Source: Ceratodon purpureus (Eukaryota > Streptophyta > Bryopsida > Pseudoditrichales > Ditrichaceae). Taken from it: a stretch of DNA of 64,000 nucleotides. This document shows positions 9,349 to 64,000 of this stretch, one piece after another. The DNA is taken from the NCBI GenBank assembly GCA_014871385.1, contig CM026426.1, positions 64,399,877 through 64,463,876 of the forward strand, in the 5' to 3' direction. A program made the position numbers and the translations under genes. Numbering within the stretch: position 1 is the first letter of the stretch; each line of letters opens with the position of its first letter. The notes beneath the pieces were generated by a model. The model was given only the letters and a program-made list of their open reading frames with translations. It searched no databases and was not told the DNA's origin.

Positions 9349-9390
9349 CCTTTGTTGCTCTCTTTGTTGTGCCGCTAACTGCTGGGTTGC

Positions 9391-33972: not shown

Positions 33973-36273
33973 ACATACTTTTTCCATAGGCGTAGCTTGC
34001 CAACACCCTATGCTCTTCGTGGATGTCAACCAGAGGTCCTTGAGGACGACACCAAACTGTATGTGCTACATTCTTTGACCTTTTCAGGGTCATCTGAATT
34101 TTCCAAATGATGATAGCGTTATACCTAACGTTGCTACAATTATTTTCCACTGGTATAATCTTTGCACAAGTTTGGAACTACATCGGAGTATATGGCGTAG
34201 GCGCAGAGGCCAGGACAGGTGCACTGGGCAATTAAGGTTGCGAGACAACTTTTACGTATACGAGTAGATTGGACGGAAGTGTGCTAGAACTAAATTCAAA
34301 GGTCTTCATCACCTATGTCTTCCACTTTCTCCACATTGTGACCTTTATACCTCCCATTGGTTGCCTGCCGACTGGATCCAGGCATGCGTGCCCTTACGTG
34401 GATACATTGGTCCCTATAGACCTCACGGGGTAGGTTATATTCAGCGGATAATACTTCAGGGAGTAGGTTACATTGTGATAGGATTTACGTAGACTAAGAT
34501 TCTACTAGTAGTAATAGACTTCATCTTTTGGGACTTAATGTTCCATACTTATACGGGACTACACATTCATGCTTGATCTATTATCTGCGGGATGGTGACT
34601 CTGTATTATACATTTTACTTCTTGAATCAATATGATATTTTTTACAATATTAATTGTAACTCTTATTTTGCATCCTCATTTATCAAACGCGTATTCCTCC
34701 TAACTACATTTGGAATTCCTTTTTTGCATTCCAAACACTGTATTCTATTCATGTACTCATAGAGTAAATGTTTATGTCCTTTTATCATTGGCGGACCGCT
34801 GAGTAACTGAGTTGTCATTGGATCATTTTTAAATCATCTCCATATATTCCATGCTTTCTTAATTATGCCGTTTTTGAATTATGGACTTTTTTTGTCCCGA
34901 ATCACTTAAATACATGTTATTTGTAAGTATTTGCAATATTTTCAAATGTTGTTCATAGGTATTTCAATACTTACACAACTCCAAATTGAAACTTTGTCTT
35001 GATAAAAGGTGTATAATGTAAGTTTGCGGATTTTAACTTCAGAACTGAAGTTCCAGTTCTTCACTGATTACATGTTATTTACATTTCCAACATTTCAGTG
35101 ACCACTTAGTGGTCCTTCAGGCAGTAAAGGGTTAACACATATTGGCACCATGGTGCCTAAAACATAAAGGCTGCTCCATAGACAACTTAATCTAACTAAT
35201 TCAGGTGATACTCTTTTGAAAACCTGGACGGAAAACCATCACAAAGGAAAAATTTAATTACATAAACGATCTACACCATAGCAATGGCAGAAACTAGAAG
35301 TCACAAAGTAATAAAATGCAGTCTAATGGAAGTGATTCAGAGCCCGGGCAAATTGAATCAATTCTACGTTTGCAGGTCCTTAGGGTACATGCTCATCCAA
35401 CACTTATAAAATAATCCAGAAAGTGTTTTCCGTAATGCAGTACTGATGAATGAAATGTACTGGACGAAAAAAAGCAACAACAATAACTGCATCCGGTAAC
35501 AGCATACTACGTTAAATCATATATATTATGGACCACATTATTTACGATGGGTCTCAGCAATTCTGAATTTCCCAGGCAGTGCTGATTTTTACAGGATTTC
35601 CAATCTTTCGAAAATACCACAGCCAAAAAGTGTTCAAAGTAACAATAGTTCTAGTCAAGTTCAAGAGCACTGTGACCTTGAAATCTTTGCTCTTAAACAA
35701 ATACGTCAAGAGTGTGACCAAAAAGGTCGGTATGACCAAAATGGAACTTAATCCTAATTTCTGTTGAGTAAACTACAGACATCACAGCCATGACATCAAC
35801 CACAAAAATTATCAACCCATATTGTTCACCCACCCACCCACAGTATTAGGTGAATTCAGTATAATTCAACCGACAATGAGGTTCAATCCATCGCCAAATT
35901 CCCAAAATCTTGGTCACTACGGTAGTACCAGATATAGAAAACCCACACTAAGTGATGCCTAAAGCGACGAATAAGATTTAGACACACAAAGCATACCACG
36001 CATTGCAGGAGGTGACAGATTAGAAGCTTAAACTACGAACCATTCATGTATTTCAAATCAGCCACCTTTTCGAACAGTCTTCACATTCTATCCAATTAGA
36101 AACTTCCTAATCTGTACAATCATGGCCAATTGCTCGCAAGCATCCTCCTCCAATACCACCAAACACTACCGCTTCACATCCTGTCCTAATAAACCAACCT
36201 ACCACAAGCACCCGTGACTACCTCCTCAAACATGTCGCGATCCCAGCCCAATCCGTATACTGAAGCAACCCAT

Positions 36274-36780
36274 CTAAGTATGCCCAATCCGGTCACGTAG
36301 AAAACACGTGCAGCCGATGCATTTGTCTCCGCACATATCCTTCCTATAAGAAAACCAGCTAACTCGCACAACGGAGCTGCGATTGAGCGCAAAGGCGCCA
36401 CTCATGCACCCATAGATGAAACCATAAAAAATAAAAAATAAAAAATAAAAATAAAAATAAAACAAGATGATCCAGTTACCATCAAGAAAAAGAAGCTGCA
36501 TATACACTAAAGCAATCCCATTCTCAGCATACGATATCAACCTAACAGCCCTCCACCAGCCGAAACTTCCTTCGCATCCATCTGTCTCAACTACCCGCCA
36601 GCTTGCACGCAAAACGGGACCCCAATCGACAGGAACGGCACCAGCGATGCACCCACTCCTAAACCGCAACGTCACGTAGCCACCATCACGGAAATGAAGC
36701 TGCAAATACATTGCAGCAACCTCAATCTCAGAATACTCTAAAAAACCCGCCTCACGAACGCAATCAAAAACGACAACCAT
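36274..36780 (-). other. Diverged tandem duplication downstream of the left Alfin-like gene
   Basis: A 168-codon open frame mirrors 61193-61699. The phrase starting GTATTTGCAGCTTCATTT recurs as GTATATGCAGCTTCTTTTTC about 190 bp later, so much of the frame is two diverged copies of one block, the second carrying a TTTTA-repeat. I recognise no domain. It may be untranslated DNA that happens to stay open. Confidence 0.35.
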
Positions 36781-37079
36781 CGGTGACCAACAACACTAAG
36801 ACTGCAAACACAATCCTTGATTCGCTTACTACGTAGATGCGTCACACTCATCCTCCCCACCAAAGCGACAGCATGCGCACCGTGACCATACCGTCCCCTC
36901 CTTACTCGACTATGCACTCTATCCAACGACACAACACCGCTAAACCATAACCCACAACACAACACTCCGCTGATCACCCTCCTATTCCCATCTGCTCAAC
37001 CACAATCATCGCACAACCCCTACACCATAAATACCATCTCTCACACCCACCAACTACGTCAAAACTCCATCATGGTCTG

Positions 37080-37683
37080 TCACGTACGGGCCCTTTTGTT
37101 GCTACACGCCGGGCACTTGTATTGCTTGATGTGCTCTGCTCGAGCAGGCGTGATCTTCACGCACTTCCCGTGGTACCACTTCTCGCAGATGTCGCACCCT
37201 ATCCAGAACTCGTCCGCCGTATAACTCCCCCCACAGCTCCCGCAGAATGTGTCCCCGTGCTCCTCCTCGTCCTCGTCCTCCAGAGTGTCCTCCTCTTCCT
37301 CACGGGGAGGCGCAGCCTTCACCTTCACGGTCTCCGTCACGCGTTGCTGCAACCACCCACATTGCCCGTCAACACCATCTCCTCAGCTGTAGTCAACTCA
37401 ACTTGCACCATCCATACCCAACACACGTTCCACGACTACACCTGCCTTCCCTCAGGCGCTCCCCATACATCACGTGCTCCAGACTCTAAACTTCCTACAA
37501 ACTCCCTTCCTTTGCACGTCACTTCCCATCACGACCTACCATCCACACACCCATGCTCGCATCCATCACCCCTTCCTATCATAGCAGTCAACACACGCTC
37601 CCAATCAATCAATCGACCAACCATTTAATCAATCCACGCACTGCTCCCTCACCATCTTCGCCGCGGGCTTTGCCCTGTTGCCG

Positions 37684-37721
<38 letters not shown>

Positions 37722-39281
37722 ACTGTTGCTGTTGTTATTGTTAGCGCTCGCCTTCTCCTTCACCAGCTTCTTGCCCGTCACCACATCGAACACCGTCGGG
37801 AGCTCGTTGATCAGGCTGAACAGCCGCTTCCTGCCAATTGGCCCCACACCACAACCACTGTCAACGAACCCACGAATGCATCACCGCACCCGACTCAGAA
37901 ACATTTCCACAAAACATCTCCATCATTCACATCACCTACACCTCCCATCACACACCCCTCCAATCCACTCACAGAAACCAACACATCAAAAAACCCTCAC
38001 CTCTTCACCTACTTCCTGCAACCTATCCAGCCATCCACAGGACGCCTCCACCAACCCTCCCACCCGTCCCTGCGACATTGCCAACCTTCCCACTTACATG
38101 ACTCCCACGTCCCACGACCACCCTGTCAACACTCGAGAAATCACCCAAACACAATCACCCCGACCCTACCTCTCGTTCTTGTCGAACCGAGCCCCGTAGT
38201 AAAATGCCACCGCCAGCAGCCATGCGTCGCTGTGCACGGCCACCAATGACAGCCAGTCCTTACGCTGCATCCCGTCCCGAGCGAAGTTGATCCCCAGCGC
38301 AGGCTCCGGTAGCTCGGGGGGCACCTCGTCGGCTGGCAGGTTCACCTCCCACGTCTCCTCCGGAAATCCATACAGGCACAGATTCTCCTTCTCTGCACGC
38401 CCCACGCATTGTCATCACTTGCTAGCACCGCACCCCGACTGCACGCTGGGACGTCAGAATGCATTGCACACAACCTCTCGGCACACAGACAGACCAACAA
38501 ACATCCCCAAACACGAACATAACCTGCAGAACTCGTAATGCAAAACTGCAGCGCGAAATGCCAAAGAACACCCAGTTTAGAGGAAATCGGAGGTCGAACC
38601 TGGATCACACTGCCGGTAAAATTCTTCCACCTCTGAACATTCCAACACGGACCACCAAAATCAGCTACAAATTCACAAGCAGATACCCGTCATTCACGTC
38701 CAGAAAGAAGAGGTTTAGTTTTCAGATTTAGAAATTCATTTTCAAACATATATTTTTTCTCATAAAGGTCCCGCTCGATGATTCTTTTCGAATTCTCGTA
38801 ACCTAATTTCCAGTATCTTCACCAGAATGCCAACAGACTCCAGAAACAACTATAGCAGAGAATCATGCACACTTCTCATTCGCCAAAGCCTCACTCACTA
38901 TGAAGATAATGAACACGCTATCGTTTTACGAAACTACTCCGAATCACCGACAATAACCAAAACTAACTCTAATAAATGAACTAAATTAAGTTAAATTAAA
39001 TCCCTGGTCCTCACGAGAACATAGTGGGCACGCTTCTCTACTGCGCAGCGATAAAACAACGACTACAGACGCTTCAGCTGTACAACCATGACAAATTTCC
39101 CAACCCGACATGATGATCACGCCACGGCTCTCAATATTCCTCCGTACCACCCCCGGAGCCATGTGTCAGAAGCCACCATACCAGAAGTGAGCGCCTTCAG
39201 CATCCCCGCGCGGCGCCCTCGGTAGTCCTTGAAGACGTCGTCCACGGAACGGGGGTTTGTCGACACCGAGGCCCCTTCCAT
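37080..39281 (-). CDS. Alfin-like PHD-finger protein, left copy
   Basis: Five exons: 39182-39281, 38600-38632, 38170-38392, 37653-37830 and 37080-37346. All have GT-AG introns with conserved phase and give 266 residues. The product is the same as for the right copy (58692-60893). Residues 1-130 or so form the Alfin N-terminal domain ([46 protein letters not shown]). An Asn run encoded by AAC repeats and an acidic linker follow. A C4HC3 PHD finger closes the protein (C213, C216, C229, C232, H237, C240, C256, C259). Family members bind H3K4me3 in the nucleus and act in transcriptional control. The upstream sequence beyond 39347 differs from the right copy; here the 5' leader is C/T-rich. The exon 3/4 junction lacks the Gly-Phe usual in GARFGFDK. 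Confidence 0.93.
37683..37722. repeat. AAC/GTT microsatellite in Alfin-like exon 4, left copy
   Basis: About 13 uninterrupted GTT triplets on the plus strand encode poly-Asn on the minus strand. The run is the same length as in the right copy (60251-60290). Confidence 0.9.
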
Positions 39282-39347
39282 CACTGCCGCCGCACCACCC
39301 AGCCGCTCCGCTCCCCTCTAGCCCTTTCCCTTCTTCTCTCGCTCTCC

Positions 39348-42300
39348 GGCAACAATCGGACCACAGCCACGGCAGCCCCGCACTCACGCCACTGCCCTCC
39401 CCCCCCCGGATCGTGACAAAGAAGGAAATATTTCATACGTTACGGTGCGTTGCGGTAAGCTGAGTTGTGCTGAGTTAGCATGGCAGACCGTCGTAGGTAG
39501 CAGAGTATTGGAATGTACTCGCCAACTTGGAACAAGTTGTCTTTCCGGGGGGAGTTGCGAGACTTGGAGAACTTGAGACGAAGAAGGCCAGACTGCGGCC
39601 CTCGGTTGCAAAGTAACTTCACGCGGGAAGGCACTTTTCTGTGATGAGGCTGGTCATCCAGCCATCCTTGAAGTCACCTTGGTTTTTAAAGGTTGCCATG
39701 AGTTTTTCTTGCTGTACTGTACTTATTACTAGTGGGACCCGTGCCGTTGAGCACATCGACCGCATCTTTTATGTCTCCTCGACGGATTCCACCTTGGAAC
39801 CGTCGAGTGAGACAAACCATGCTCAATTGTAAGATAGATTCTTCTTTACCTCAAATAGTTGAGAGGCATGAACTTGGCGGTCCTACTATTTTTGGTATGT
39901 AAGAGTTGGTGGTGTCTGTGTCCATTAATTATTTAGTGTGAGTAAATAAGATTTTATTTGATAAAATCTTATAATACATAAGTCATATAATAAATGACAT
40001 TACAATTAACTAATAAGTGTTGTTTTTCTCCATTGAGATGAATATTGTATCAAGTTCAACTTTTGATGTTTGTTTATTTTTACCTGCAAACATGTTATTT
40101 TAGCAAGTACCTCATTCCGACAATATATATATTGATAATATTATATTAATATATTATAATAATATTATATTAATATATTATAATATATTACAACACTTCA
40201 AAATGTTGATAATATATCTTGGGGAATCCAAACATAGTTCTGATTTTCTTAGCATTGGGCTATTATTAGGAATAGAATTTTTCAACATTTTTAAATAAGT
40301 TAATGTAAAAACATCTTTGTATAGGTATATTATATGAAGTCAATTGTCAAAAATCAATTAAGATGGAAAAATAAGTTATATTGGGAAACAAAGTGTTTAT
40401 AATTCATATTCTATAGTATTAGAATATTCACATAATTGAAGTTTTCTATACTTGATTTTTATTATTTAAATTTTAAAAAAAAACAAATTTTAAATTTATT
40501 TGAATTTCGACATTTATAACTATATATGTATTTCATGTTGGTGGTTTAAAGTATATACAAAAATAAATCTAAGTGACATATCAATATTTTAATTTACTAA
40601 GGCTGCGCACAACTGCCGACGAAGATCATAATCCATCATGTATTTTGGTACAAACTCCATATTTATATATTTAAAGATAAATTGAACTATTTTACAATGA
40701 AGTTTCCATTGTGGCACTCCCTAAAAAAGTGTGAAGTCTCACATTTAGGAAGAAAATAAGTAATGTATATTTAGGAAGTTGCAAGCGAGGGTAGATTGAT
40801 GGCAGTTACGACCAGGTCGACGCTAAGGCCATCGCCTTTCAATTCCCTTTGTAATTTTTGTGGGTAAAAACTCTCTTCGAGTACCTTGTTGACAAAATTA
40901 AAGTAAAGTTAAAAAGAAGTTATTTGTTTTTTGAATGATGGTTTGCAGTGTATAAATTTGAAAATTGCTTGAAGACCATTTTGTGAAATATATTAAAAAA
41001 TAATAAAAACTAACAAGTTAGAAATGAAATGTGTTAATATAAAAATAAAATAGAATAAAATTTACACAAAAAATGAATGAAGTTGAGCTTTGCTTTTGTT
41101 TTTCAATATGTCGATTGGTTTAAAATATTGTTTGAAATAACTTTTGTAATAACCTTTTGAATAGCCATCAATATATTATTATAATTTTTCAAACAACCTT
41201 TCAAGTTTTCAAATCCGACTTTAATCTCTTTTTTCTTTTCACAACCATATAGGACCAATGATACCAAACGACATAACGACCACAGCAGTCACGATGCCAA
41301 TTTTTCTTCATATTTTTCTGGGTTGAAACCGTCTCCGAGTTTGTGGTCTACGAAATAAGAACCAATGATGAAAAGAAAGATTTTTTTTCTAAAATTGGAA
41401 AAGTAATGGTGATATTCAATTATACTTATTTTGGACTACTGCAACATCTTTGAAATATCATGAGATGTTTTTGAAAAATGAATGACAAATTGTTTTGTCA
41501 TAATGACACATTCTATAACATGATTCTTCTTGAAACTTAACACTTTAATAAATATATATTTGGTCATTCAATAATTTGTCTTTGCAAATTATCTTTTCTA
41601 TAAAGTACTACCAAAGATTATTAGTAGATGGTTTATAAAGTTTTTGTCCCATCAAAGCTTGGATGTGATTCCACTTAATAATTTTTTTTCAATTTTATAA
41701 ACAGTAAAGTATCTCAAACTTTAAATAAGCCAATTTTTCATTAACTTCAATTGAAAAACGGTCTTGAAAAAATAGAGTTGTGTATTTAAGAACCAAAAAA
41801 AATTCTAAAACATTAAATTATGCGATAAATTGGCCACGACAAATCAATGGCACTAGTAGCAACAATGAGAGTCTATTTTCATAAGTCACTAAATACAAAT
41901 ACAACACGAAAACTTATGCATCCATTTTTATGGGACCTCTAGGTACTCTTACGATTCTAAAATTGGGAACGTCGGCGTTCCTAAAGATTCCAATAAAGAT
42001 GACCACCTGATCCAACTCTCTAATCATTAACCTCTAATGTCTAAATCAACCAACCTCAAATGTCTAAATCAATCCTTTAAGGGTCTATTTTTGTCCAGTC
42101 AGGCTTGCAATTACTAAATTTAGATCAAATGAAGTTGCTACTTTTGGTAGAATGTAGAGCTTTGCAAAAAGTCATCTCATGCTTCAAAATTCCTCATACT
42201 TTAGGAGATATTCACAGTGAAAGTTTGAAAACACTCTTTGAAATCTGCCCAAAACTGCCTAGACTGCGGTATATGCTCATTTATTCTCAAAAATTACCCA

Positions 42301-45300
42301 AAATCAATTAAATTGCAGAAACTTCAAAAATTCACCAAAAATTGAGATTTTAATTTTTTTCAAGTTTTGTTTTTGTTTTAAGTAAATAAGGTTTTAAGGC
42401 ATGAAATCACCGTTTGAATCATCAATCCAATTATTCTTCACATGCCTTTTTTATTGTCAAAAATTGGCCTTTGTAGTTGAATTTCAGCATACCTCTATGT
42501 GAATAATCAAGCATTTCTTTAGGTTTTATAGGTCGTATGAGGGTAAAAATTGGAAAGGCATGTTCCTAACTCACCTAAAAACAAGAATTTGAAGAGTCTC
42601 ATATCAAATTTTCTACCAGAAATGGTTTTTATTGGCCTTCAAAAAACCAGTTATTCTTTTTCTAACAAGCAAAGAAAACATTTTTCCATCTTTAAATATT
42701 ATGATCTCACAATTGGTAAGGAATTTGAATTTAAAATTTGACATACATATGCACATACAAGTTAAGTTCAAAATCTTATGGTTGCATACTCAAAAATACA
42801 TCAGAAATTAAAAAATTTCACCTTACATTGAAAAATGGCAGTTTTGAGGGTTTTTCGCAGTTTTGAGGGCCTTGGACATTAAGGGTTAATAAGTGTCCCA
42901 AACTATGAACTTTGGGTTGAAGCGTCCTTGCCGCTCAGGCGGGGTGCTCTCGCCGCTCATGCAAGGAGGAAGGTTTTGCTCGGGCTCTTGCCATCGCAAT
43001 AGAGATGGCAACAGAGATGGCGATTACAGCGAGGACATGGCATTTACTTGCTTCAATAGCCATTTCTACATTGGGGCTTCTTTTGCGGCACCCAAATGTA
43101 CTTCCAACGAGGTTAGGTGGGAATGGCGGCGGCGGCGATTTGTGCTTCAACCAACGTGAAGATGGAGGACGGTGGTTGTTGTCCTTCCCTTCTCTCTCGC
43201 AGGGATTTGGAGGTGTTGTATGGCAGCCAGTGCACCTCTTCAAATAGAGGCGACCTCCTCCGTTGTTCTCCTTTCCCTCCTACTCCTTTCTGTAGTGAGT
43301 GGTTTTAGTCTTATGGCTTCTTAGGTGATTGATAGCAGTTTTCTTTTGCAGTAGCTTCCTTCCTGATTTTGTTGATGTAAGGTCAAGGATTATAGACTAA
43401 TTCCTTCAACTAGAAGTAGTGCATCTCACGGCCAGTTATGTTAGCAACTTGCTCAGTACTTGTGTTGAGTCTCTTCGAGGCTCAGATGACAGATTCTTGC
43501 CCAAACAACGGAGGTTTGGACGAGGTCACTTTGATTCAGGCATCCGCAAGGCGCCTCTGAAAGGAACCTTTTGGAGCATGGGTGCAAGCCGACTGTGGTT
43601 GCAGATTCTTCTTTTTGTACTTCGTTTGTGGTTGCAGATTCTTCTTTTTGTACTTCGTTTGATTTTGCTCAGATGTTGTATCTAATGCTACTTCAAGGAG
43701 GATAGTTACAAATATCTTTGCAGTTGGGACGTTTTTGTCTTCAAGGCCTTGGAGCTTCTTCAGGTCTTCAAGGTGGAGGTGGTGCTTCATCAGAGTGTGG
43801 ATATGTCTAGACATCAACTTTCTCATCTCACCATCTCTTGTTTTTTTCTGCAGACTAGATAAAGGGCACCATGTTGGCTGCTCCGTATCATAGATTAATA
43901 CTCACATTTCAATTTACTTGTTTTGCTGATTTGTTTTCATTGCAAGAAAATGGGTGTAAAATCTACTAAAGATTGACACTGAAATTTCCAAATCAACAAA
44001 AGGACCTCGACACCTTGGATTTCTGTCAATTTACACTCGTTCAAATTTTTTTGTCAATTTGCTGTCAATCAGTGGACAAACTATCCAACGTGGATGCAAA
44101 TGGGGGATTTTCATATTGGCTTTATTTCTTATTTTGCTACGTGTTTATCTTATGCTGACGTGGAATTTCTTTTGCACTATTCTTCGTGAATTATATTATT
44201 TACTGAAATTCCTGCAGGGTAACTAAAAAATTTATTACCTCACATTCAGGAAAATTTGCATCCTCGGAGAAATGCGGCATTGTGAAAGGAGTAAGGGGGT
44301 GACGGTAGGAGTTAGGGGCGGCGCATGTGAGTTAGGAGAGAGGGCGATGATGCTCTCGGAGAGCAGCAGAGTGTGAGTGAGGTGCATAGGGGTTACTATG
44401 TACATTAGTGGAGACGAAGCGGTAGGCAGTTAAGTAGCGTGAGGTAGTGGTAGGAGGTGTGTGAAGGCTGCTGGCTGCAAGAAGGTTGGTGGAGGTCGAT
44501 GGTTGCTTGCGGTCGGAAGCTCAAGGGAGTTGGTGTCGGGTTGCTACGGCTGTTGGAAGTCCGGAATTCTCAGCGAAGGGGTAACTGTCGGAGAGGCCAA
44601 GAGCGGTGCGTATGAAGGAGTTTCATCGGTGTCGACATCAACTGAACTGGAATCGAAATGAAGTGACGACGTCGAAGGTGCTTGGTGGGGCAGCGGTTCG
44701 GCGGTTCACTTGAACAGCTGCAGTGTTCCTCAATGGCGGGGGTTGCATTGAAGCAGCAAGTGGCTGCTCCGAAATTGTCGGGAGTGAGACTTTGGAGCTA
44801 AAGAGATTCGGGAGCCTGACAAACAGTTAGGGCACATGCCTTTGATGGGGATATGTAAGACACCTGATCATTCTTGTGAATTCGTCCAGATTTCTGCTTA
44901 ATTCATTCCATCCCAATTGTACGTATGGTCACGAGATGGTTGATTGTGGCGTGAGCACATGGCGTGACTTTCGATCTGATGTAAAGAACTGTTTTAGGGT
45001 ATACTCTTGCAAAGCGTTCACCTTGGAAGGTTCCTGATTGAAGTTCTCAGAGGAGATGGTTAAATTTGTACTGAAGAGGTGGTGTTCATCGATCTTAAAC
45101 TTCGATGTCGGTCATACCATTATCGTTAGTTTGTGGCCATTCTGTAATTTTCTCTGGAATTAGGTTTGCCTTCTTTCGATAACAAGGACAAGATGACCAG
45201 ATGAGTCATCCTTGTTTTGTGAATCTCCTACAAAGTTATACAGTCCATGTATCATGACAAGTGCTGTACATGTACTGTGCTCCTGGGCTCAGCCAGAAAT

Positions 45301-46329
45301 GAATTTTGATTATTTTTTCTCAAGATTTGTTTTCAGGTTTTCTAATTATTCACCTGGTTTGGGAGTCTGTAGATCTAATTATATGCAAGGAGCATATTAT
45401 ACTTGAATGTGGCACTTAAAGGGGGCATTTGGAAGCATAATATGGTGTGGTAAATCCTGTGTACATTGTATACACATGTGGCTCACTCTGTGCAAGTTGA
45501 CAAAACATCGAAGTGGTACAGAGTCACAGACACTTGAGCTCTTGGGTACAGACACTGTCGCTTCGATCAGATGGTCTCGCTTATGGTACAGATCATCCTT
45601 GAACTCTGATTGTAGCTTTTAACCTCGTGTGTCTCCCGCAGCCACGCTATTTTAAGTAAACGCAGTCACGATATTTCACATACCCAGAAGATACTCGGAC
45701 CAGGGGCAAGTGTAAAGAATCAATTTTGGAGATCCACAAATTTCGGGTTGTGATTAATTTTATTTTTACAAATGCATGGATCAAACTACTGTAAATTGTA
45801 AAACAAATTTTATGAGCCCATAGATGATGACGTGGAATTCACTTTTAGAAGTTAACCATGCCGTAAAAGGTGACATGGAAAATCAATCCTACGAGGAATG
45901 GAGGAAAGGAGTTCTAGTGTCCTCTGTGGATTTTTGTCCAAAATGACAGAATAATTGAAAGAATTACGTCAATTACGTGACCGAATCAAAGTAGCATAAC
46001 TTGTAAGACAATTAACAAAACTCTTTCAAGTTTCTGTCAAAAAAACCACTGGTTCCCTTGTAGTATTTTCGTAGGGCAAGATTAGATGTAGATGTGGATC
46101 CTCGGAGTTCTAGGTCATCCACGATGATATCTTGAACTAGAATTCTTTTGGTATTGTTATGCCTTGTTGTGCTTGCAGTGGTAGATGTAGAGCTTTAGTG
46201 GCTTCGCCTGGATTTCTGATCTAGGCTGTGAGCATGGCACCTTGGTCTCGAGCCTTCGGGCTCGTGACCTTGATTTGTACTTCCTTTCCCTACTTTTAAC
46301 CACGGTGCGGATTTCAAAGTGTCCCAAAT
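39348..46329. other. Long spacer without a supportable gene
   Basis: Between the left repeat arm and the LINE the DNA is mostly AT-rich (40000-42800), with more mixed composition at 42900-45600. A dense AT stretch with ATATTATATTAATATATTAT repeats lies at 40127-40200. A 33-bp block starting GTGGTTGCAGATTCTTC is duplicated at about 43598-43663. No conserved protein, RNA gene or transposon termini were recognised. Confidence 0.6.
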
Positions 46330-46345
46330 AGTATAGAGCACCAGA

Positions 46346-49656: not shown

Positions 49657-49672
49657 AGTATAGAGCACCAGA

Positions 49673-52363: not shown

Positions 52364-55195
52364 ACATAGTTGTGAAAGTTTTGAATGTATAGAAATCTCT
52401 GGTTTTATTGAAGGATGAATGTGTAGGAAGTCAAAAACAATTGATTTATTGTTTGCTTGATTAAAATATGGCTTTTGGTAATCATTTAATTACGGATGAA
52501 TGGCATTTTGCATACAATTTTACCGCTTCCGTATCCTAGACGGGATCGGAGACATGGAAAAACTTTATAGATTATATTCTTTTGACATTTATTTCCAAAA
52601 TCCTTAAGAATTAGAATATATTTGTGATGGAAACATAAGTAGTCAACTTTGTCTTCAAACCTCTTGAAAGCACCGCAAAATATAGGTGATTGAAGTGTCC
52701 TGTAAATGTGTATTATCAGCATTTTGATGTTGTTATTGCTCTTGTTGTCACAGTGTTTGTAAACGCAATGTCTCCATGTGCATCTTCGTGCAGTGATCAT
52801 GAAAAGTGAAGATTGTTGAGTACCTTTCCATTGCAGTGAAAATTACTAGAATGATTACTCAAATTCAATCAAAACAGATATTTCAATATAGTTCAAACCA
52901 GTTGAGATTTGTCACATGTAGTGACCATTATAGGTGAATTAGATGGTCTTTATAGAGACATTTTTCTTGGTTTGAGGATAGTGTAGAGATTCTTTTCAAT
53001 CAATTGGACAGCATACACTTCAAAATTCATAACAATTTCATGCTTTGTCTAAAAAATAAAATAAAATTTCTACTATCTATTTTTGACATTTGTCTTTATG
53101 TGGAATTTTAGAAAAAAATCAACAATGGCAACAAGGCACACAAATCATTCTACTTATGATAGGTTGTTTTTATCTTATGTGGATATGCAATTTTGAGATA
53201 TTAGTATTGGAGAATGGGAGATCTTCCCGTTTAGAAGCAAGAACTGCTGAGACATATGAAATCATCATCATTTTGGAAGACCCTGATGTAATTCTCTTGT
53301 GCAAGGTTGTGGAACAGTGTGATTAAAAATACCAAATCATTCAAAGATATGGAGAAAGTGTTTATTTAACATTTAGCCTGGTCAAGCATCAGTATGAGTC
53401 ATCAACACACTGCTAAAATATATATCTTTACAAACTTATTAACAAAATTATTTAACTCCAACCATTTTTAAAAAATGCATACTACCGTAAATTTGTAAAT
53501 GAACAAATTACACTGGTGAGGTATCACAACATAGATTGATGGTGAAAAATGTATTTATATTCCAAAATTGTCACAAAATTTTGGAATCATGAAACCCCGG
53601 AAATGCAAAGTCGTAAGTTGTTTGGCTTGATGCACTTCTTTTTCTACTTGTACATGCTCTTATTCCCACCTTGAACCCTATGCTTTAGTTCAACTTTCTC
53701 CAAGTTTTGTATTTGTAGGTGAACCTTGAGGTCCCACACGCCTTATTATCCAAGTATTTTTTCACTATCAAAGCAATCCTTTATGCGAAAAAATTTACAT
53801 TGAAATAAAATTATAAAAATTCAAGTTATATTTTTTTGATATAAAAATTTCAATGAATACAAAAAGATCATAATTTCATGTTAAAATATATATTTTGTGA
53901 TTGTATACACACAAATATATAAAATTCTTGATAATTTATCTAAAACTTAATTGTTAGTTTTGTTTTAGATTCAAATTTTATATGTTAAGAATATATATAA
54001 ATTTAGGTAATTTATTAGTTTTTGAAAATTTAAAGATGTAAAATAAAATTTATAAATGCATTTATAACATACATTGTGTAACAGTAATTAATAGTTGGCA
54101 AGTGGAAGATTGTATTAAAAAATGCATTGAAAATGATTGAATTTTTTTATAATTATTAATGATTTTTAAGTTATAAGAAGAGGTTGTACATTTTGAAAAT
54201 AATCCAGAATTTATGTATCACACTACTTTCTATAAAGTATGGATTATCATGTCAATATTATCCCTGTTTAAATTCATTTCAACAAATAATTTTTATATTA
54301 CGAATATTATACTTGTGATTTAGTTTGGAATTTATTTAAGATTACAAAATTAATCATTTTGATGAATAATGGTGATTTTAAAAAAAATAATAATTATCTG
54401 AGTAATAAAAATATGTCCGCTTATCACTAAGTCAATCACAAGCCAATTCCACAAAAGCCTTACCTGAAACCTAATTTGAATGAAACCTAATTTGTATGTA
54501 TAATAATAAATTCAGTTTTTATAAGCATACAACTTCTATTTGTAAATTTGGGATTAAGAAAATGTTTTCATTAATGTTTTTTTTAAATTCAATGATTGAT
54601 ATAAAATTTTCAGATTTATTGTGCTAAGTTATCTCCTTCAACAGAAATTAATTAAACATCTTTGTACCGTATACTATCTATTATTATAACAAAAGTCATG
54701 GGCAAAAATGTTTGTGATTTCAATGTGAAAATCAAAAAATATATAAAGTTATTGCAAGGATTATCCACGTATAATTTTGAGTAGCATTGTTTAACAAATA
54801 TACAAAAAGATGTAACAACATAATGCTGGAAATTTGAGTTTATACGTGGAACACAAACATACTAATGTCACTACTTTTTCTATTAATTAACTTGAGTTTG
54901 AGAAGATAAAGCTTGACAATTGATTGAAAGAACCAATATCTTTAAATGTAATTCTTGCATCGAAGTTTAAGTCTAAGATAAGTAGCCAAAGAAGAGGAAC
55001 TTGCATAATTTGTAGAAAAGAATAGACTGCAATTCATATTGCAATCATTTAGATTTTTACCAAAATATTTTTTTATAAGCCATCCATTGTTTACAAGAAT
55101 TTCTTTGCTTAAGTCTACCTAACGACCCTTCAAACAAGTTTTGCAGAATTCTCAATATGTGTGATTTACATTATCCCTGATAGTCTGAGACAACG
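52364..55195. other. AT-rich spacer, nothing recognised
   Basis: Strongly AT-rich DNA. A 78-codon frame at 53090-53326 has no recognisable domain. No repeats with clear ends were seen. Confidence 0.55.
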
Positions 55196-55229
55196 AGATT
55201 TCTGCATTCATTAATTAATGCAGAAATCT
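55196..55229. repeat. Perfect 13-bp-arm palindrome
   Basis: AGATTTCTGCATT and its exact complement AATGCAGAAATCT are separated by 8 bases. A related sequence (TGCATTAATTAATTAATGCA, then AATCT) lies at 57615-57638, on the far side of the C-rich/CACTA-like composite. Confidence 0.8.
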
Positions 55230-55304
55230 TATAGTTTCACACTGCCATGTGGACCCCCTTGAGTGGGTGCTACATGGCAAATTGGAATAAATCTGAATTA
55301 ACTA

Positions 55305-55439
55305 TCCCACCCCCCCACCCTCTTGTACTTTGAGGGGAGGTGAAGAGGTACAAACTATATGAGATAAACCTGCCCCCCAAGGCCCCCCAAGTCCCCCCAA
55401 GTCCCCCCAAGTCCCCCTCAAGTCCCCTTGAAGTCCTTT
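55305..55439. repeat. C-rich minisatellite, left part
   Basis: Units of about 10 bp, AAGTCCCCCC, repeated six or more times. The array is split by the CACTA-like element and continues at 57337-57610. Confidence 0.85.
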
Positions 55440-57336
55440 TACTATAAGAATCCCGCCTTTTAGGTGACATCCCAAATCATGTCTAAAAAAACAAGTGGAC
55501 GTTGTAAAGGATGTCGTGCAGACATGAGAACATCTAAGACGCAGCAAAAACAAATGCAGACATCCAAAAAAACATGCAGACATCTTCGTAGCACGTGCGT
55601 CTCCGGGTGATTTCGAGGGGCAGTGAAGTATGCAAGGTGGACGCCACGTCGACGACACATCAGTGAAGTTTTTTCCGGGCAGTGCTACATGGGAGGAGGA
55701 TGTCATCGCTGCCATAGTGACGTGGTGGACCACGTGGACCCGCCATTTCTGATGTGGCGGCGCAAAATTCTGACGTGTCAAACAGTGAAGGAGTGACGTG
55801 GCTTGCCACATAAGTATAGTTTTTAAAGATTTTTGAGTTGGAACTGCGTTACTGTAGACGTCACCGGAGACATCACCGTGGTTTCTGAGACGTCTATGTG
55901 GTGACAACGTGATGTCCACGCCGATGTCTGTGCGGACGTGAACTGTATCCGACATTTGTTATAGTGGACATCCCCATGTTGTAGAATTTGCCATGGTTGA
56001 CATAGACATGTCAATGTGTACGGGATGTGTGCAAGGGTGTTTTTGCAGACATGAATGTATTTTTGTAGACATGAAGGTGTTTTGTAGACATGAGGGTGTT
56101 TTTTGTAGACATGCGAGTGTTATTGCAGACATGAAGTTGTTTTAGCAGACATGGAGGTATCTTTGCAGCCACAAAGGTGTTTCTACAGCCATGATGGTGG
56201 CATTTAATTACAAGGAAATTAGAGAAACAAGATCACATGAAGAAAGGAACAAGGAAGGAAAGGAGATAAGAAGAAGATGGAGAACAAGAATGAAGTTAGG
56301 AGAAAACCCCCCCTCGGATTTTTTTGAAGTACCTTTCAGTTTTTAGGTTGCCATCTTTCCATCCTAGCTTGGATTGGGGCGCGCCTTAGCTTTATGAAAA
56401 GCTAATTTGATTGTGCATCTACCCACAAAATCTTGGAAGCATACGATCAAAATCCTAGGACTGATTGCTAGAAATCCGAGACCCTTCCTCCAGCCGCACT
56501 CCTTTGACAACCCCAACTTTGAGAGGCGATATCTCACTCCCTATAACTTGAAATTGGACGTGCTTACTACTATTGGAAAGCCCTACAAGAGATCTATAGC
56601 TACGTCAAATCTCACTTTACTTCGACAAGGAACGAGGGACTGATAGGGAAAACAATGGGCAACACTCCATGGAGGAGGAAGAAAACACAGAAAACAAGCT
56701 CTCAAATACAAGGTAAGAAGCCGCCGAAGTGGCGGCTCACCCTAACCCTACCAAGGCTCAAAGCCCTAATCTAAGGCCTTCATGGATGAATGTTTCCACC
56801 AATGAACCAAAAATGGATGAATGAACGTCACCATGTCTCGACAGATGTCTGTGTCGACATCTTTCGAGACATGCGGACGTCTCTAATAGAAAAATAGAGA
56901 AGAACTTTGATATTGCAAATTTCATTTTACAAAGAAAAATAAAAAAACGTTCTTCAACACCTTTCGGCCTTTTTTTCCTCCATTTGCTGATCCTGCCCTT
57001 CTTGTGGTTTTTTTCACTAGGGGCAGGAAGTTACTTTGCAGCCTAGTAACTTTGCGCCCATTTTACCGTTCGTCAAAACGAGGTTGTTGTGGACGTGGCA
57101 ATTTTGTGTTGTAGAGATGTCCTCTGCGACGTCCCTGTAGACGCAGACGTTTTTCCTCATGTCTTTGCGTTTTTAAGTTGACGTGCCCGTGTGTGATGAC
57201 GATAAGTCCAATTTATCTCAAAAAACGCGTTAACGTCCGCACGTTCTCCAAGATATGAATGACTAACACAGAGACATGACAAGAACACGACCATGTTTTT
57301 GAAGAACATCACCTAAAACGCGGGATTCTTATAGTG
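55440..57336. mobile_element. Non-autonomous CACTA-like DNA transposon
   Basis: The right end read on the minus strand starts CACTATAAGAATCCCGCGTT; the left end reads TACTATAAGAATCCCGCCTT. About 28 of the first 31 bases match. CACTA termini and dense subterminal motifs define the CMC/EnSpm group. Here AGACATG, GACGT and GACATC motifs crowd both subterminal regions (55480-56200 and 56830-57300). The flanks are both C-rich minisatellite, so the element inserted into it. The expected 3-bp target duplication is imperfect (TTT/CTT, or CTT two bases further out). No transposase frame is present. An open frame at 56407-56643 has no recognised domain. Confidence 0.7.
56035..56200. repeat. Subterminal tandem repeat of about 25 bp
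   Basis: About seven units of TTTTGTAGACATGAAGGTGT, with variants ending GCAGCCATGATGG. They lie inside the CACTA-like element and carry its AGACATG motif, a likely transposase-binding site by analogy with En/Spm. Confidence 0.75.
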
Positions 57337-57610
57337 CTTCCAAGTCCTCCCCCAAGACCTCCCAAAGTCCCCCCCAAGACCCCCCAAAGTCCCCCCAAAG
57401 TCCCCCCCCCCAAAGTCTCTCTCAAGATCCCCCCAAGTCCCCCCCCAAGTCTCCTCAAGACCCCCCCAACTCCCTTCAAGTCCCCCCCCTCCAAAGTCCC
57501 CCCGAAGATCCCCCAAGACCCCTAAAGACCCCCCCTAAGACCCCCCAAGACCTCCTAAAACTTCTCGATCGACCTGGCTACGCCACGTACCCCCTCCACC
57601 CCCCTCCTCA
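57337..57610. repeat. C-rich minisatellite, right part
   Basis: Irregular units of AAGTCCCCCC, AAGACCCCCC and AAAGTCCCCCC over 270 bp, strongly strand-asymmetric (C on plus, G on minus). Confidence 0.85.
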
Positions 57611-57639
57611 CCCCTGCATTAATTAATTAATGCAAATCT

Positions 57640-58624
57640 GGGTGGAGAGTGAGATTTGGGAAGATAGTAAGACTCAGGCTTCAAATATGAAATTTGAAAT
57701 ATATGTCGAGTACCTGGTGTGTATTGAATGCAAGATAACAATTTGGTTTTCATCGATTTTACAAATATGGATAATTTTCATCCACCAGAATAACACAAAA
57801 GATCCGAACTAAATGGAGGATACGTTTCAGAGTGGGTCACTTAGGGTGTGTGACTGCCCTGTCCCCTGACAGGTTCGAATTCCCCCACACAGTTTCTAAG
57901 TTCTGGATGCGGATGAGAACAAATTTTCGTATGGGGGTTGAATGAAAAATACAGTTTCAAATAGTTTCTAGTTATTATTCCTTTGAGGAGAAAATTAGGA
58001 ACAAAAAAATAGAAAAAGTAATTAATTACATTAAGCTTTATAAATGAAATATAATATTCATGTAATTATATAATTAGTATAAGGCCTTTCAAACCCATCG
58101 ACCGGAAAAAATTGGATGTCAATCTGAAGCAAGGATCCACGGTCATAGGTCCACCATCTCACGGTAAAGGATTGATCTCACCATTCCAACCACGAAGGCA
58201 GGTACCGGTATATTGCAAGCAAGCGAGCGTGCGTGCGAGCAGAGTTCAGGAATACGAGGAAACCAAACACCACCCATCCCGCGTGAACTCCACTTCCCCT
58301 CCGCCTCGTCCCCCCCTCGCAGTCTCTCTACGTGCACTGACATAGCACACACTAACTCACTTGCCTCTCAAGTGCTAATATTTCTCAAGGGCGTGTGTCC
58401 TCTGCTAACTCTACTTCTCGAGATACATTTCATGTGCAATTTCTAAGCCATTGCTTATTGGCGTGCATGAGGTTCCCAAGGAGAGAGAGGGACGGGGTTT
58501 GCGTAGTTTAGGACTTATTTTGATTGTTTTCTCGTTGCAACAGTGCGCGTCCATTGGCAGGCGCGGTGGGGGTTCGGAGTGGGAGGCTGCCGTGGGATCG
58601 TTCTGCGGAGCGGTCGGGAGCAGA
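57640..58624. other. Spacer up to the right repeat arm; upstream region of the right Alfin-like gene
   Basis: No coding region supported. A CAGGTTCGAATTCCC sequence near 57870 resembles a tRNA B box and may be a SINE remnant. The last 200 bases are GC-richer and would serve as promoter and 5' leader of the right Alfin-like gene, unlike the corresponding sequence at the left copy. Confidence 0.45.
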
Positions 58625-58691
58625 GGAGAGCGAGAGAAGAAGGGAAAGGGCTAGAGTGGCTGCGGAGCGGCTGGGTGGTGCGGCGGCAGTG

Positions 58692-60251
58692 ATGGAAGGG
58701 GCCTCGGTGTCGACAAACCCCCGTTCCGTGGACGACGTCTTCAAGGACTACCGAGGGCGCCGCGCGGGGATGCTGAAGGCGCTCACTTCTGGTATGGTGG
58801 CTTCTGACACATGGCTCCGGGGGTGGTACGGAGGAATATTGAGAGCCGTGGCGTGATCATCATGTCGGGTTGGGAAATTTGTCATGGTTGTACAGCTGAA
58901 GCGTCTGTAGTCGTTGTTTTATCGCTGCGCAGTAGAGAAGCGTGCCCACTATGTTCTCGTGAGGACCAGGGATTTAATTTAACTTAATTTAGTTCATTTA
59001 TTAGAGTTAGTTTTGGTTATTGTCGGTGATTCGGAGTAGTTTCGTAAAACGATAGCGTGTTCATTATCTTCATAGTGAGTGAGGCTTTGGCGAATGAGAA
59101 GTGTGCATGATTCTCTGCTATAGTTGTTTCTGGAGTCTGTTGGCATTCTGGTGAAGATACTGGAAATTAGGTTACGAGAATTCGAAAAGAATCATCGAGC
59201 GGGACCTTTATGAGAAAAAATATATGTTTGAAAATGAATTTCTAAATCTGAAAACTAAACCTCTTCTTTCTGGACGTGAATGACGGGTATCTGCTTGTGA
59301 ATTTGTAGCTGATTTTGGTGGTCCGTGTTGGAATGTTCAGAGGTGGAAGAATTTTACCGGCAGTGTGATCCAGGTTCGACCTCCGATTTCCTCTAAACTG
59401 GGTGTTCTTTGGCATTTCGCGCTGCAGTTTTGCATTACGAGTTCTGCAGGTTATGTTCGTGTTTGGGGATGTTTGTTGGTCTGTCTGTGTGCCGAGAGGT
59501 TGTGTGCAATGCATTCTGACGTCCCAGCGTGCAGTCGGGGTGCGGTGCTAGCAAGTGATGACAATGCGTGGGGCGTGCAGAGAAGGAGAATCTGTGCCTG
59601 TATGGATTTCCGGAGGAGACGTGGGAGGTGAACCTGCCAGCCGACGAGGTGCCCCCCGAGCTACCGGAGCCTGCGCTGGGGATCAACTTCGCTCGGGACG
59701 GGATGCAGCGTAAGGACTGGCTGTCATTGGTGGCCGTGCACAGCGACGCATGGCTGCTGGCGGTGGCATTTTACTACGGGGCTCGGTTCGACAAGAACGA
59801 GAGGTAGGGTCGGGGTGATTGTGTTTGGGTGATTTCTCGAGTGTTGACAGGGTGGTCGTGGGACGTGGGAGTCATGTAAGTGGGAAGGTTGGCAATGTCG
59901 CAGGGACGGGTGGGAGGGTTGGTGGAGGCGTCCTGTGGATGGCTGGATAGGTTGCAGGAAGTAGGTGAAGAGGTGAGGGTTTTTTGATGTGTTGGTTTCT
60001 GTGAGTGGATTGGAGGGGTGTGTGATGGGAGGTGTAGGTGATGTGAATGATGGAGATGTTTTGTGGAAATGTTTCTGAGTCGGGTGCGGTGATGCATTCG
60101 TGGGTTCGTTGACAGTGGTTGTGGTGTGGGGCCAATTGGCAGGAAGCGGCTGTTCAGCCTGATCAACGAGCTCCCGACGGTGTTCGATGTGGTGACGGGC
60201 AAGAAGCTGGTGAAGGAGAAGGCGAGCGCTAACAATAACAACAGCAACAGT

Positions 60252-60289
<38 letters not shown>

Positions 60290-60893
60290 CGGCAACAGGG
60301 CAAAGCCCGCGGCGAAGATGGTGAGGGAGCAGTGCGTGGATTGATTAAATGGTTGGTCGATTGATTGATTGGGAGCGTGTGTTGACTGCTATGATAGGAA
60401 GGGGTGATGGATGCGAGCATGGGTGTGTGGATGGTAGGTCGTGATGGGAAGTGACGTGCAAAGGAAGGGAGTTTGTAGGAAGTTTAGAGTCTGGAGCACG
60501 TGATGTATGGGGAGCGCCTGAGGGAAGGCAGGTGTAGTCGTGGAACGTGTGTTGGGTATGGATGGTGCAAGTTGAGTTGACTACAGCTGAGGAGATGGTG
60601 TTGACGGGCAATGTGGGTGGTTGCAGCAACGCGTGACGGAGACCGTGAAGGTGAAGGCTGCGCCTCCCCGTGAGGAAGAGGAGGACACTCTGGAGGACGA
60701 GGACGAGGAGGAGCACGGGGACACATTCTGCGGGAGCTGTGGGGGGAGTTATACGGCGGACGAGTTCTGGATAGGGTGCGACATCTGCGAGAAGTGGTAC
60801 CACGGGAAGTGCGTGAAGATCACGCCTGCTCGAGCAGAGCACATCAAGCAATACAAGTGCCCGGCGTGTAGCAACAAAAGGGCCCGTACGTGA
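58692..60893 (+). CDS. Alfin-like PHD-finger protein, right copy
   Basis: Exons 58692-58791, 59341-59373, 59581-59803, 60143-60320 and 60627-60893 join in phase to 801 bases (266 residues). The 33-bp exon 2 supplies the conserved EFYRQCDP segment. The N-terminal Alfin domain includes [35 protein letters not shown] and [15 protein letters not shown]. An AAC-encoded Asn run lies near residues 145-160, then an acidic stretch (about 194-208). The PHD finger at 213-259 has Trp235 in KWYHGKC. Alfin-like proteins bind H3K4me3 through the PHD finger and recruit chromatin repressors in the nucleus. The ATG was chosen because it begins the family's conserved N-terminus. Only about 65 bp of sequence upstream of it is shared with the left copy. 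The Gly-Phe normally found before DK in GARFGFDK is missing. Confidence 0.95.
60251..60290. repeat. AAC microsatellite in Alfin-like exon 4, right copy
   Basis: About 13 uninterrupted AAC triplets encoding Asn, flanked by AAT/AGC-interrupted Asn/Ser codons. Confidence 0.9.
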
Positions 60894-61192
60894 CAGACCA
60901 TGATGGAGTTTTGACGTAGTTGGTGGGTGTGAGAGATGGTATTTATGGTGTAGGGGTTGTGCGATGATTGTGGTTGAGCAGATGGGAATAGGAGGGTGAT
61001 CAGCGGAGTGTTGTGTTGTGGGTTATGGTTTAGCGGTGTTGTGTCGTTGGATAGAGTGCATAGTCGAGTAAGGAGGGGACGGTATGGTCACGGTGCGCAT
61101 GCTGTCGCTTTGGTGGGGAGGATGAGTGTGACGCATCTACGTAGTAAGCGAATCAAGGATTGTGTTTGCAGTCTTAGTGTTGTTGGTCACCG

Positions 61193-61699
61193 ATGGTTGT
61201 CGTTTTTGATTGCGTTCGTGAGGCGGGTTTTTTAGAGTATTCTGAGATTGAGGTTGCTGCAATGTATTTGCAGCTTCATTTCCGTGATGGTGGCTACGTG
61301 ACGTTGCGGTTTAGGAGTGGGTGCATCGCTGGTGCCGTTCCTGTCGATTGGGGTCCCGTTTTGCGTGCAAGCTGGCGGGTAGTTGAGACAGATGGATGCG
61401 AAGGAAGTTTCGGCTGGTGGAGGGCTGTTAGGTTGATATCGTATGCTGAGAATGGGATTGCTTTAGTGTATATGCAGCTTCTTTTTCTTGATGGTAACTG
61501 GATCATCTTGTTTTATTTTTATTTTTATTTTTTATTTTTTATTTTTTATGGTTTCATCTATGGGTGCATGAGTGGCGCCTTTGCGCTCAATCGCAGCTCC
61601 GTTGTGCGAGTTAGCTGGTTTTCTTATAGGAAGGATATGTGCGGAGACAAATGCATCGGCTGCACGTGTTTTCTACGTGACCGGATTGGGCATACTTAG
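61193..61699 (+). other. Diverged tandem duplication downstream of the right Alfin-like gene
   Basis: Mirror image of 36274-36780, with the same 168-codon open frame and the same two-block internal similarity (DGGYVTLRFRSGCIAGAVPV against DGNWIILFYFYF...YGCMSGAFAL). No domain recognised; possibly 3' flanking DNA only. Confidence 0.35.
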
Positions 61700-61799
61700 A
61701 TGGGTTGCTTCAGTATACGGATTGGGCTGGGATCGCGACATGTTTGAGGAGGTAGTCACGGGTGCTTGTGGTAGGTTGGTTTATTAGGACAGGATGTGA

Positions 61800-64000
61800 A
61801 GCGGTAGTGTTTGGTGGTATTGGAGGAGGATGCTTGCGAGCAATTGGCCATGATTGTACAGATTAGGAAGTTTCTAATTGGATAGAATGTGAAGACTGTT
61901 CGAAAAGGTGGCTGATTTGAAATACATGAATGGTTCGTAGTTTAAGCTTCTAATCTGTCACCTCCTGCAATGCGTGGTATGCTTTGTGTGTCTAAATCTT
62001 ATTCGTCGCTTTAGGCATCACTTAGTGTGGGTTTTCTATATCTGGTACTACCGTAGTGACCAAGATTTTGGGAATTTGGCGATGGATTGAACCTCATTGT
62101 CGGTTGAATTATACTGAATTCACCTAATACTGTGGGTGGGTGGGTGAACAATATGGGTTGATAATTTTTGTGGTTGATGTCATGGCTGTGATGTCTGTAG
62201 TTTACTCAACAGAAATTAGGATTAAGTTCCATTTTGGTCATACCGACCTTTTTGGTCACACTCTTGACGTATTTGTTTAAGAGCAAAGATTTCAAGGTCA
62301 CAGTGCTCTTGAACTTGACTAGAACTATTGTTACTTTGAACACTTTTTGGCTGTGGTATTTTCGAAAGATTGGAAATCCTGTAAAAATCAGCACTGCCTG
62401 GGAAATTCAGAATTGCTGAGACCCATCGTAAATAATGTGGTCCATAATATATATGATTTAACGTAGTATGCTGTTACCGGATGCAGTTATTGTTGTTGCT
62501 TTTTTTCGTCCAGTACATTTCATTCATCAGTACTGCATTAAGGAAAACACTTTCTGGATTATTTTATAAGTGTTGGATGAGCATGTACCCTAAGGACCTG
62601 CAAACGTAGAATTGATTCAATTTGCCCGGGCTCTGAATCACTTCCATTAGACTGCATTTTATTACTTTGTGACTTCTAGTTTCTGCCATTGCTATGGTGT
62701 AGATCGTTTATGTAATTAAATTTTTCCTTTGTGATGGTTTTCCGTCCAGGTTTTCAAAAGAGTATCACCTGAATTAGTTAGATTAAGTTGTCTATGGAGC
62801 AGCCTTTATGTTTTAGGCACCATGGTGCCAATATGTGTTAACCCTTTACTGCCTGAAGGACCACTAAGTGGTCACTGAAATGTTGGAAATGTAAATAACA
62901 TGTAATCAGTGAAGAACTGGAACTTCAGTTCTGAAGTTAAAATCCGCAAACTTACATTATACACCTTTTATCAAGACAAAGTTTCAATTTGGAGTTGTGT
63001 AAGTATTGAAATACCTATGAACAACATTTGAAAATATTGCAAATACTTACAAATAACATGTATTTAAGTGATTCGGGACAAAAAAAGTCCATAATTCAAA
63101 AACGGCATAATTAAGAAAGCATGGAATATATGGAGATGATTTAAAAATGATCCAATGACAACTCAGTTACTCAGCGGTCCGCCAATGATAAAAGGACATA
63201 AACATTTACTCTATGAGTACATGAATAGAATACAGTGTTTGGAATGCAAAAAAGGAATTCCAAATGTAGTTAGGAGGAATACGCGTTTGATAAATGAGGA
63301 TGCAAAATAAGAGTTACAATTAATATTGTAAAAAATATCATATTGATTCAAGAAGTAAAATGTATAATACAGAGTCACCATCCCGCAGATAATAGATCAA
63401 GCATGAATGTGTAGTCCCGTATAAGTATGGAACATTAAGTCCCAAAAGATGAAGTCTATTACTACTAGTAGAATCTTAGTCTACGTAAATCCTATCACAA
63501 TGTAACCTACTCCCTGAAGTATTATCCGCTGAATATAACCTACCCCGTGAGGTCTATAGGGACCAATGTATCCACGTAAGGGCACGCATGCCTGGATCCA
63601 GTCGGCAGGCAACCAATGGGAGGTATAAAGGTCACAATGTGGAGAAAGTGGAAGACATAGGTGATGAAGACCTTTGAATTTAGTTCTAGCACACTTCCGT
63701 CCAATCTACTCGTATACGTAAAAGTTGTCTCGCAACCTTAATTGCCCAGTGCACCTGTCCTGGCCTCTGCGCCTACGCCATATACTCCGATGTAGTTCCA
63801 AACTTGTGCAAAGATTATACCAGTGGAAAATAATTGTAGCAACGTTAGGTATAACGCTATCATCATTTGGAAAATTCAGATGACCCTGAAAAGGTCAAAG
63901 AATGTAGCACATACAGTTTGGTGTCGTCCTCAAGGACCTCTGGTTGACATCCACGAAGAGCATAGGGTGTTGGCAAGCTACGCCTATGGAAAAAGTATGT
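61800..64000. other. Outer part of the right arm, no gene recognised
   Basis: AT-rich DNA identical to 33973-36173 in reverse complement. Short open frames occur on both strands, none with a recognisable domain. A CTTTACTGCCTGAAGGACCA segment and nearby short repeats (AAATAACATGT) are the only visible structure. Confidence 0.5.

Follow-up and report, generated by a model that had tools for sequence, protein, structure and literature searches.

A moss palindrome with an Alfin-like gene pair, probably sex-linked, whose arms are very likely kept alike by gene conversion

The 64,000-nucleotide stretch analyzed here (the window; C6:64399877-64463876 in a host assembly of 362,488,568 bases, probably that of the moss Ceratodon purpureus) lies within a palindrome of about 140 kb. 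It contains a 19.3-kb spacer that is unique by self-BLAST (window 39348..58624) and, on either side, the inner part of an arm carrying one copy of an Alfin-like PHD gene. Our data indicate that the palindrome is, with high probability, older than it looks, and that its arms have been kept alike by repeated arm-to-arm gene conversion.

The gene pair and the palindrome around it

The left copy of the Alfin-like gene (window 37080..39281, minus strand) has five exons, at 39281-39182, 38632-38600, 38392-38170, 37830-37653 and 37346-37080. The right copy (window 58692..60893, plus strand) has an identical coding sequence. The gene model has GT-AG introns and encodes 266 amino acids with no internal stop, and its start codon lies 66 bp within the inner edge of the arm. 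Judged from this sequence, both copies appear to be intact, in agreement with an earlier note on this DNA that reported an intact plant gene in the arms. Pfam assigns an N-terminal Alfin domain (PF12165, DUF3594; E=1.4e-43) and a C-terminal PHD finger (PF00628; E=2.5e-10), and PDB structures named ALFIN-LIKE match both domains. With these two domains and five exons the gene has the features of the Alfin-like family; five exons are found in every member on the tree in the available part of a Brassicaceae study (PMC3698079). A genome-wide search for the Alfin domain, in which all nine of nine candidates were scored, located it in three places, once in each palindrome arm and at C10:9518507-9518743. 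Across the 330 kb that we read in total (C6:64,200,001-64,400,000 and onward through the window to 64,530,000 on its right), a protein search found Alfin solely as the two copies in the arms, and none of 11 pattern matches to Alfin in viral contigs was confirmed.

Self-BLAST of the window aligns positions 33973-39347 with 64000-58625 in inverted orientation over 5,376 columns, with 99.926% identity, three mismatches and one gap (E=0). The earlier note had described two inverted arms facing each other, each 5.37 kb or longer and separated by 19.3 kb, with inner edges at 39347 and 58625, and we recover the same arrangement and the same edges. Introns and microsatellites within the window arms are, as it stated, preserved like exons. 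Its claim of a base-for-base match stands as near-identity and fails as strict identity: the arms differ by a single-nucleotide polymorphism at 35432/62541 and by a compound replacement of 5-6 bases at 39312-39316/58656-58661, 31-36 bp from the inner edge. The minimum arm length that it gave was correct, and the true arms are far longer; the match stops at base 64,000 because the window was cut there, not because the arm ends.

Inverted matching in the host assembly places the whole palindrome at C6:64,376,513-64,516,074; the arms span about 63 and 58 kb and have roughly 30 kb of sequence in common. This common sequence forms a series of islands, three of them long. The outermost, B4, pairs C6:64376513-64392894 with 64516074-64499695 (42 mismatches in 16,372 columns). 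Island B2a pairs C6:64411786-64414953 (window 11910..15077, plus strand) with 64482810-64479643 (6 in 3,168). The inner block, B1, comprises C6:64430211-64439223 on the left (window 30335..39347, plus strand) and its 9.0-kb inverted partner C6:64467515-64458501 on the right (window 58625..64000, minus strand, and on to window-equivalent 67639), which align over 9,013 columns with 14 mismatches and two single-base gaps. Four short islands are 98.3-99.1% identical between the arms: C6:64396410-64397046/64499700-64499109 (10 in 592, inverted), C6:64397047-64397554/64497022-64496515 (8 in 508, inverted), C6:64411674-64411788 (window 11798..11912, plus strand)/64496519-64496405 (1 in 115), which overlaps B2a by three bases, and C6:64414954-64415574 (window 15078..15698, plus strand)/64468132-64467512 (6 in 621). 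A count of differences between the arms had been called for in the earlier note; over all islands it gives 87 mismatches in 30,389 aligned columns, a figure in which the three overlapping columns are counted twice. Long inverted arms of about 99% identity or more around a unique spacer are characteristic of sex-chromosome palindromes. The longest run identical between the arms, about 3.9 kb, takes in the Alfin coding region. The 14 kb past the right outer end and the 176 kb read on the far side of the left outer end share no inverted match reaching 150 bp. Repeats in the left flank resemble parts of the arms, and of the insert R2 described below, at 77-86%.

At the inner edges, both 80-bp flanks outside the arms (window 39348-39427 and 58545-58624) are GC-rich, at 0.66 and 0.71; a value of 0.66 is reached by 15 of 19,037 spacer windows. 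An 11-bp word occurs in near register on both sides beyond the edge and is matched by 72 of 20,000 shuffles and by 34 of 19,166 real pairs. The local similarity score between the flanks is reached by 11 of 1,000 shuffles at 120 bp and by 153 of 5,000 at 80 bp, and the anchored comparison, reached by 1,337 of 5,000, is not significant. When the flanks were compared with 921 real GC-rich windows, two scored as high for the left flank and three for the right, at least one of these three overlapping the query itself. No flank homology was found beyond 80 bp, where 106 of 500 shuffles scored as high.

Insertions confined to one arm

Six large segments are present in one arm only, each with an uninterrupted counterpart in the opposite arm. 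Target-site duplications are clear in five of the six (L1, L2, L3, R2 and R3). The left arm carries L1 (3.5 kb; target duplication ATCGGG), L2 (C6:64397555-64411673, its right part being window 1..11797, minus strand; target duplication ATCGT) and L3 (window 15699..30334, 14.6 kb; 4-bp target duplication CATT). L2 is a 14.1-kb Ty3-type long terminal repeat (LTR) retrotransposon with Pfam domains for reverse transcriptase, ribonuclease H, integrase and gag, and L3 ends in 21-bp terminal inverted repeats, GGGTGTAAGTATGCTA(G/A)ACTC. The right arm carries R1 (2.1 kb, with only CAA common to its ends), R2 (a 13.6-kb LTR element; target duplication TCCAT) and R3 (C6:64468142-64479642, 11.5 kb; target duplication ATCCCAGT), whose ends we take to be hAT-like and which contains a DUF659 open reading frame (ORF). 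Since five of the insertions bear target duplications and the other arm is uninterrupted at each site, they were inserted after the arms had been duplicated.

The terminal 21-mer of L3, with up to two mismatches allowed, occurs 139 times in the genome (71+68), compared with 0+0 for a reversed-pattern control, and L3 is therefore a mobile element. Among 100 places listed for this end, 73 are on C6, and a number of them form plus/minus pairs 13-15 kb apart. This copy of L3 contains SET-domain ORFs and a 721-amino-acid ORF without a Pfam match, and a transposase was not identified among them. R3 also holds an ORF with a protein-kinase domain (E=6e-10), possibly a captured gene.

The insertions bear on whether the palindrome is real. 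Near-identical inverted copies are known to mislead assemblers, and a false duplication, arising from two haplotypes, a graph loop or a fold-back read, was one of three origins proposed in the earlier note. From the assembled sequence we judge such an artefact extremely unlikely. The arms are set apart by their 87 site differences as well as by the six insertions, five of which have proper target duplications and uninterrupted opposite sites, and identity never runs beyond the 3.9 kb or so around the gene. The 320 kb of assembly examined contains no N, and a fold-back would leave no 19.3-kb spacer. The gametophyte of mosses is haploid, so that there is no second haplotype to duplicate falsely.

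Left of the palindrome lies a further related sequence, copy P (C6:64317176-64331662), which is inverted and 71-86% similar over collinear stretches. It lacks the Alfin gene, and neither the L1 nor the L3 site is interrupted in it. We used it as an outgroup.

Divergence between the arms

The two LTRs of an element are identical at insertion. Those of L2 now differ by 14 mismatches in 400 positions (3.5%) and one 24-base gap, a 16-fold higher divergence than the 62 differences in 28,553 columns (0.22%) between the long islands (Fisher p=2e-12); the comparison with all islands (87/30,389) gives p=6e-11. As L2 post-dates the duplication and its LTRs are 3.5% apart, the age of the palindrome is no less than this divergence implies. 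By this one element, the duplication is older than the identity of its arms suggests. The LTRs of R2 differ at 4 of 621 positions (p=0.05 against the long islands), which marks R2 as a younger insert. We dropped an attempt at dating in years, which used a Populus rate (in the available part of PMC7023750) and a general plant rate, and no moss rate.

A single recent inverted duplication without later exchange would also yield arms that are alike, simply because they are young. It would account for the low divergence of the long islands, and for the match within the window taken alone, which amounts to one single-nucleotide and one compound change. This explanation is very unlikely: L2 was inserted afterwards, yet its LTRs have diverged 16 times further than the long islands, and the even divergence that a young duplication would produce is not seen. 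Instead, divergence varies with the distance to the inserts and with the length of the island. Close to an insert or to the inner edge (up to 150 bp away) the arms differ at 28 of 1,765 positions, compared with 59 of 28,679 elsewhere (p=3e-14; the outer end of the palindrome was counted as interior). In the long islands alone the figures are 13 of 750 and 49 of 27,813 (p=6e-9), an excess reached in none of 20,000 random placements. By heterology, the differences within 150 bp number 8 in 300 at L1, 4 in 207 at L2, 7 in 300 at L3, 5 in 300 at R1 and 2 in 150 at the inner edge. In the short islands 25 of 1,836 positions differ, significantly more than in the long ones (p=3e-11). Within the long islands the 62 differences, merged into 59 events, are clustered, with a variance-to-mean ratio of 2.18 in 500-bp bins that none of 5,000 simulations equaled, and the clustering is unchanged when the edges are trimmed. 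Differences are thus patchy and, except beside R2 and R3, are retained next to heterologies, the pattern looked for in a palindrome under gene conversion. Clustered differences that depend on distance and length argue against sequence of a single age without exchange, and are expected if conversion needs homology on both sides.

Alternatively, the differences beside the inserts could stem from mutation associated with insertion, through repair errors or spreading methylation, rather than from escape from conversion. Insertion-associated mutagenesis has been described, and the excess does adjoin the inserts. With copy P as the outgroup, 18 of the 87 differences could be polarized in five aligned segments: the left arm holds the derived base in 5, the right arm in 11 and neither arm in 1, and 1 is a gap, so that both arms have changed. 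Beside L3, an insert of the left arm, seven differences are derived on the uninterrupted right arm, three on the left and one on neither. The insert-bearing arm is therefore not the most mutated, and as mutation caused by insertion would fall mainly on the left here, this counts against it. In addition, the changes in the short islands (13 transitions and 12 transversions) do not resemble those of methylated cytosine, and insertion-associated mutation leaves the L2 LTR clock unexplained. We therefore give it very little credence.

We favor gene conversion between the arms, the option among the three in the earlier note that our data support; the L2 LTRs and the concentration of differences at edges oppose a very recent duplication, and the site differences and insertions make a false one unlikely. 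An inverted duplication would first have set two copies bearing the Alfin-like gene face to face around the spacer, and transposons would then have inserted independently in each arm. Thereafter the arms may have been rewritten from each other repeatedly by intrachromosomal conversion, that is, by pairing of the arms, heteroduplex formation and non-crossover repair, a process that would halt near heterologies. The long islands would be only about 0.2% diverged because they were rewritten in this way. The flanks of the left inserts and the short islands would have partly escaped, at about 1-3%, towards the 3.5% of the L2 LTRs.

Several points weigh against this interpretation. The old LTR clock comes from a single insertion, L2, while L1, L3, R1 and R3 are undated. 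Beside R2 and R3 there is no edge excess (1 in 208 and 1 in 300 within 150 bp), which fits young inserts, an explanation not predicted in advance. Protection at edges gives no account of the outermost 0.7 kb, where there is no difference, or of the following 1.7 kb, where there are 17. The segments aligned to copy P covered only the 18 polarized differences, and copy P itself is probably another repeat copy rather than a third palindrome arm. The similarity and GC-richness of the inner flanks could be remains of the upstream part of the gene, or chance. The species and the sex linkage of the palindrome are argued from chromosome number and size, as set out below. The case for conversion is drawn from one genome, whereas classical proof consists of arms that are concordant within a species and different between species. 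Finally, the available part of the Brassicaceae study reports no gene conversion event detected among Alfin-like genes (PMC3698079); by that account conversion is not a habit of the family.

Chromosomal setting, known palindromes and repeats

C6 measures 110,524,308 bases, 30% of the assembly; C1-C5 and C7-C13 span 16.5-29.0 Mb, and C14 and C15 each fall short of 0.16 Mb. One giant and twelve other chromosomes agree with the chromosome number of Ceratodon purpureus. By the published length of the V, C6 may be the V chromosome of a male plant. Chromosome number and size together fit the reading that C6 is probably the sex chromosome of this species, whose U and V each exceed 100 Mb and make up about 30% of a 360-Mb genome, according to the available part of PMC8000587.

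Similar palindromes have been described on sex chromosomes of mammals, birds and willow. The nearest described case that we found, as far as the available part of the source shows, is the pair of W palindromes W.P1 and W.P2 of Salix purpurea (Zhou et al. 2020, PMC7023750). These too have inverted arms with genes, about 20 kb long and more than 99% identical, on a plant sex chromosome; retrotransposons led to the judgment that the arms are older than their identity, and conversion was inferred. In contrast to the moss, Salix is a ZW diploid angiosperm with four arms that carry cytokinin regulators, and conversion there was shown against a second species, whereas our case comes from one genome. 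The palindromes of human and ape Y chromosomes, as cited in the same source, likewise combine near-identical arms, arm genes and arm-to-arm conversion on a non-recombining chromosome. In them, by contrast, the arms are far larger and the genes belong to testis families; the moss is haploid and its arms hold one chromatin-reader gene pair. A limited literature search, covering parts of PMC8000587, PMC9261002 and PMC8941642 with the Ceratodon genome paper outside it, found no palindrome described for a UV chromosome, in mosses or elsewhere. The moss palindrome would be a known kind of structure in a new, probably UV setting.

Inverted duplicates also arise when an inversion follows staggered breaks, with or without later homogenization. 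As an origin for the palindrome we consider this unlikely; it concerns the origin only and does not compete with conversion. The anatomy, a unique segment between inverted copies, is what such an event produces, and inverted duplicates of 1 to 7 kb flank the inverted segments 2h and 2q of Drosophila mojavensis in the available part of PMC3355041, where a gene duplicated at 2q is missing exon 1 and its upstream part. Those duplicates differ from the moss arms in being short and in serving as clocks that diverge with time, with no homogenization reported in that part of the source. The arms described here reach 58-63 kb with some 30 kb in common, and staggered breaks leave their pattern of divergence unexplained.

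The wider meaning of arm-to-arm conversion in this setting is evenly balanced in our assessment. On a haploid UV chromosome, with U and V not recombining with each other, a conversion palindrome could keep a sex-linked pair of chromatin-reader genes uniform. It may thereby help to explain how thousands of genes have been kept on moss sex chromosomes some 300 million years old, and the islands bounded by transposons would record the reach of conversion and the age of insertions. For non-recombining chromosomes, the question of whether conversion between arms can take the place of recombination has been raised with the Y and the W, in which diploidy and unequal effective size act as confounders. 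A haploid UV chromosome that carries a palindrome permits a cleaner test, with the U or V partner as a symmetrical control. Older divergence beside insertions, erased in long islands, would moreover allow conversion to be recognized in a single genome, with no need for a sister species.

The spacer contains a decayed long interspersed nuclear element with broken frames, recognized through Pfam matches in an RVT_1 ORF (window 46337-47170) and a zf-RVT ORF (window 47880-48920). Rfam and a transfer RNA search each returned zero matches. Each outer end of the palindrome and each inner block contains a copy of a 644-bp repeat (C6:64376551-64377194, 64433887-64434528, 64463197-64463838 and 64515393-64516036). 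Its outer and inner copies are 98.9% identical, and it may have seeded the palindrome. A 319-base piece at the right outer end recurs within the arm at C6:64506343-64506661 (98.7%) and may be a template-switch scar. In island B4, the ORFs at C6:64388438-64389028 and 64391607-64392167 show a Pre-SET motif (E=1.9e-13) and a RING-like match that stays below its cut-off; the repeat family may carry parts of a histone methyltransferase. The arm stretch at window 34011-34925 has at least 47 genome matches, most of them on C6, among 40 of 340 candidates scored. Two inverse copies of about 1.64 kb, at window 4252-5890 and 21100-22761, are 91.7% identical over their full length (94-96% in pieces) and have TG...CA ends and 5-bp target duplications (AAAGG and CTACC). 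We interpret the first, nested in L2, and the second, nested in L3, as solo LTRs from a single family.

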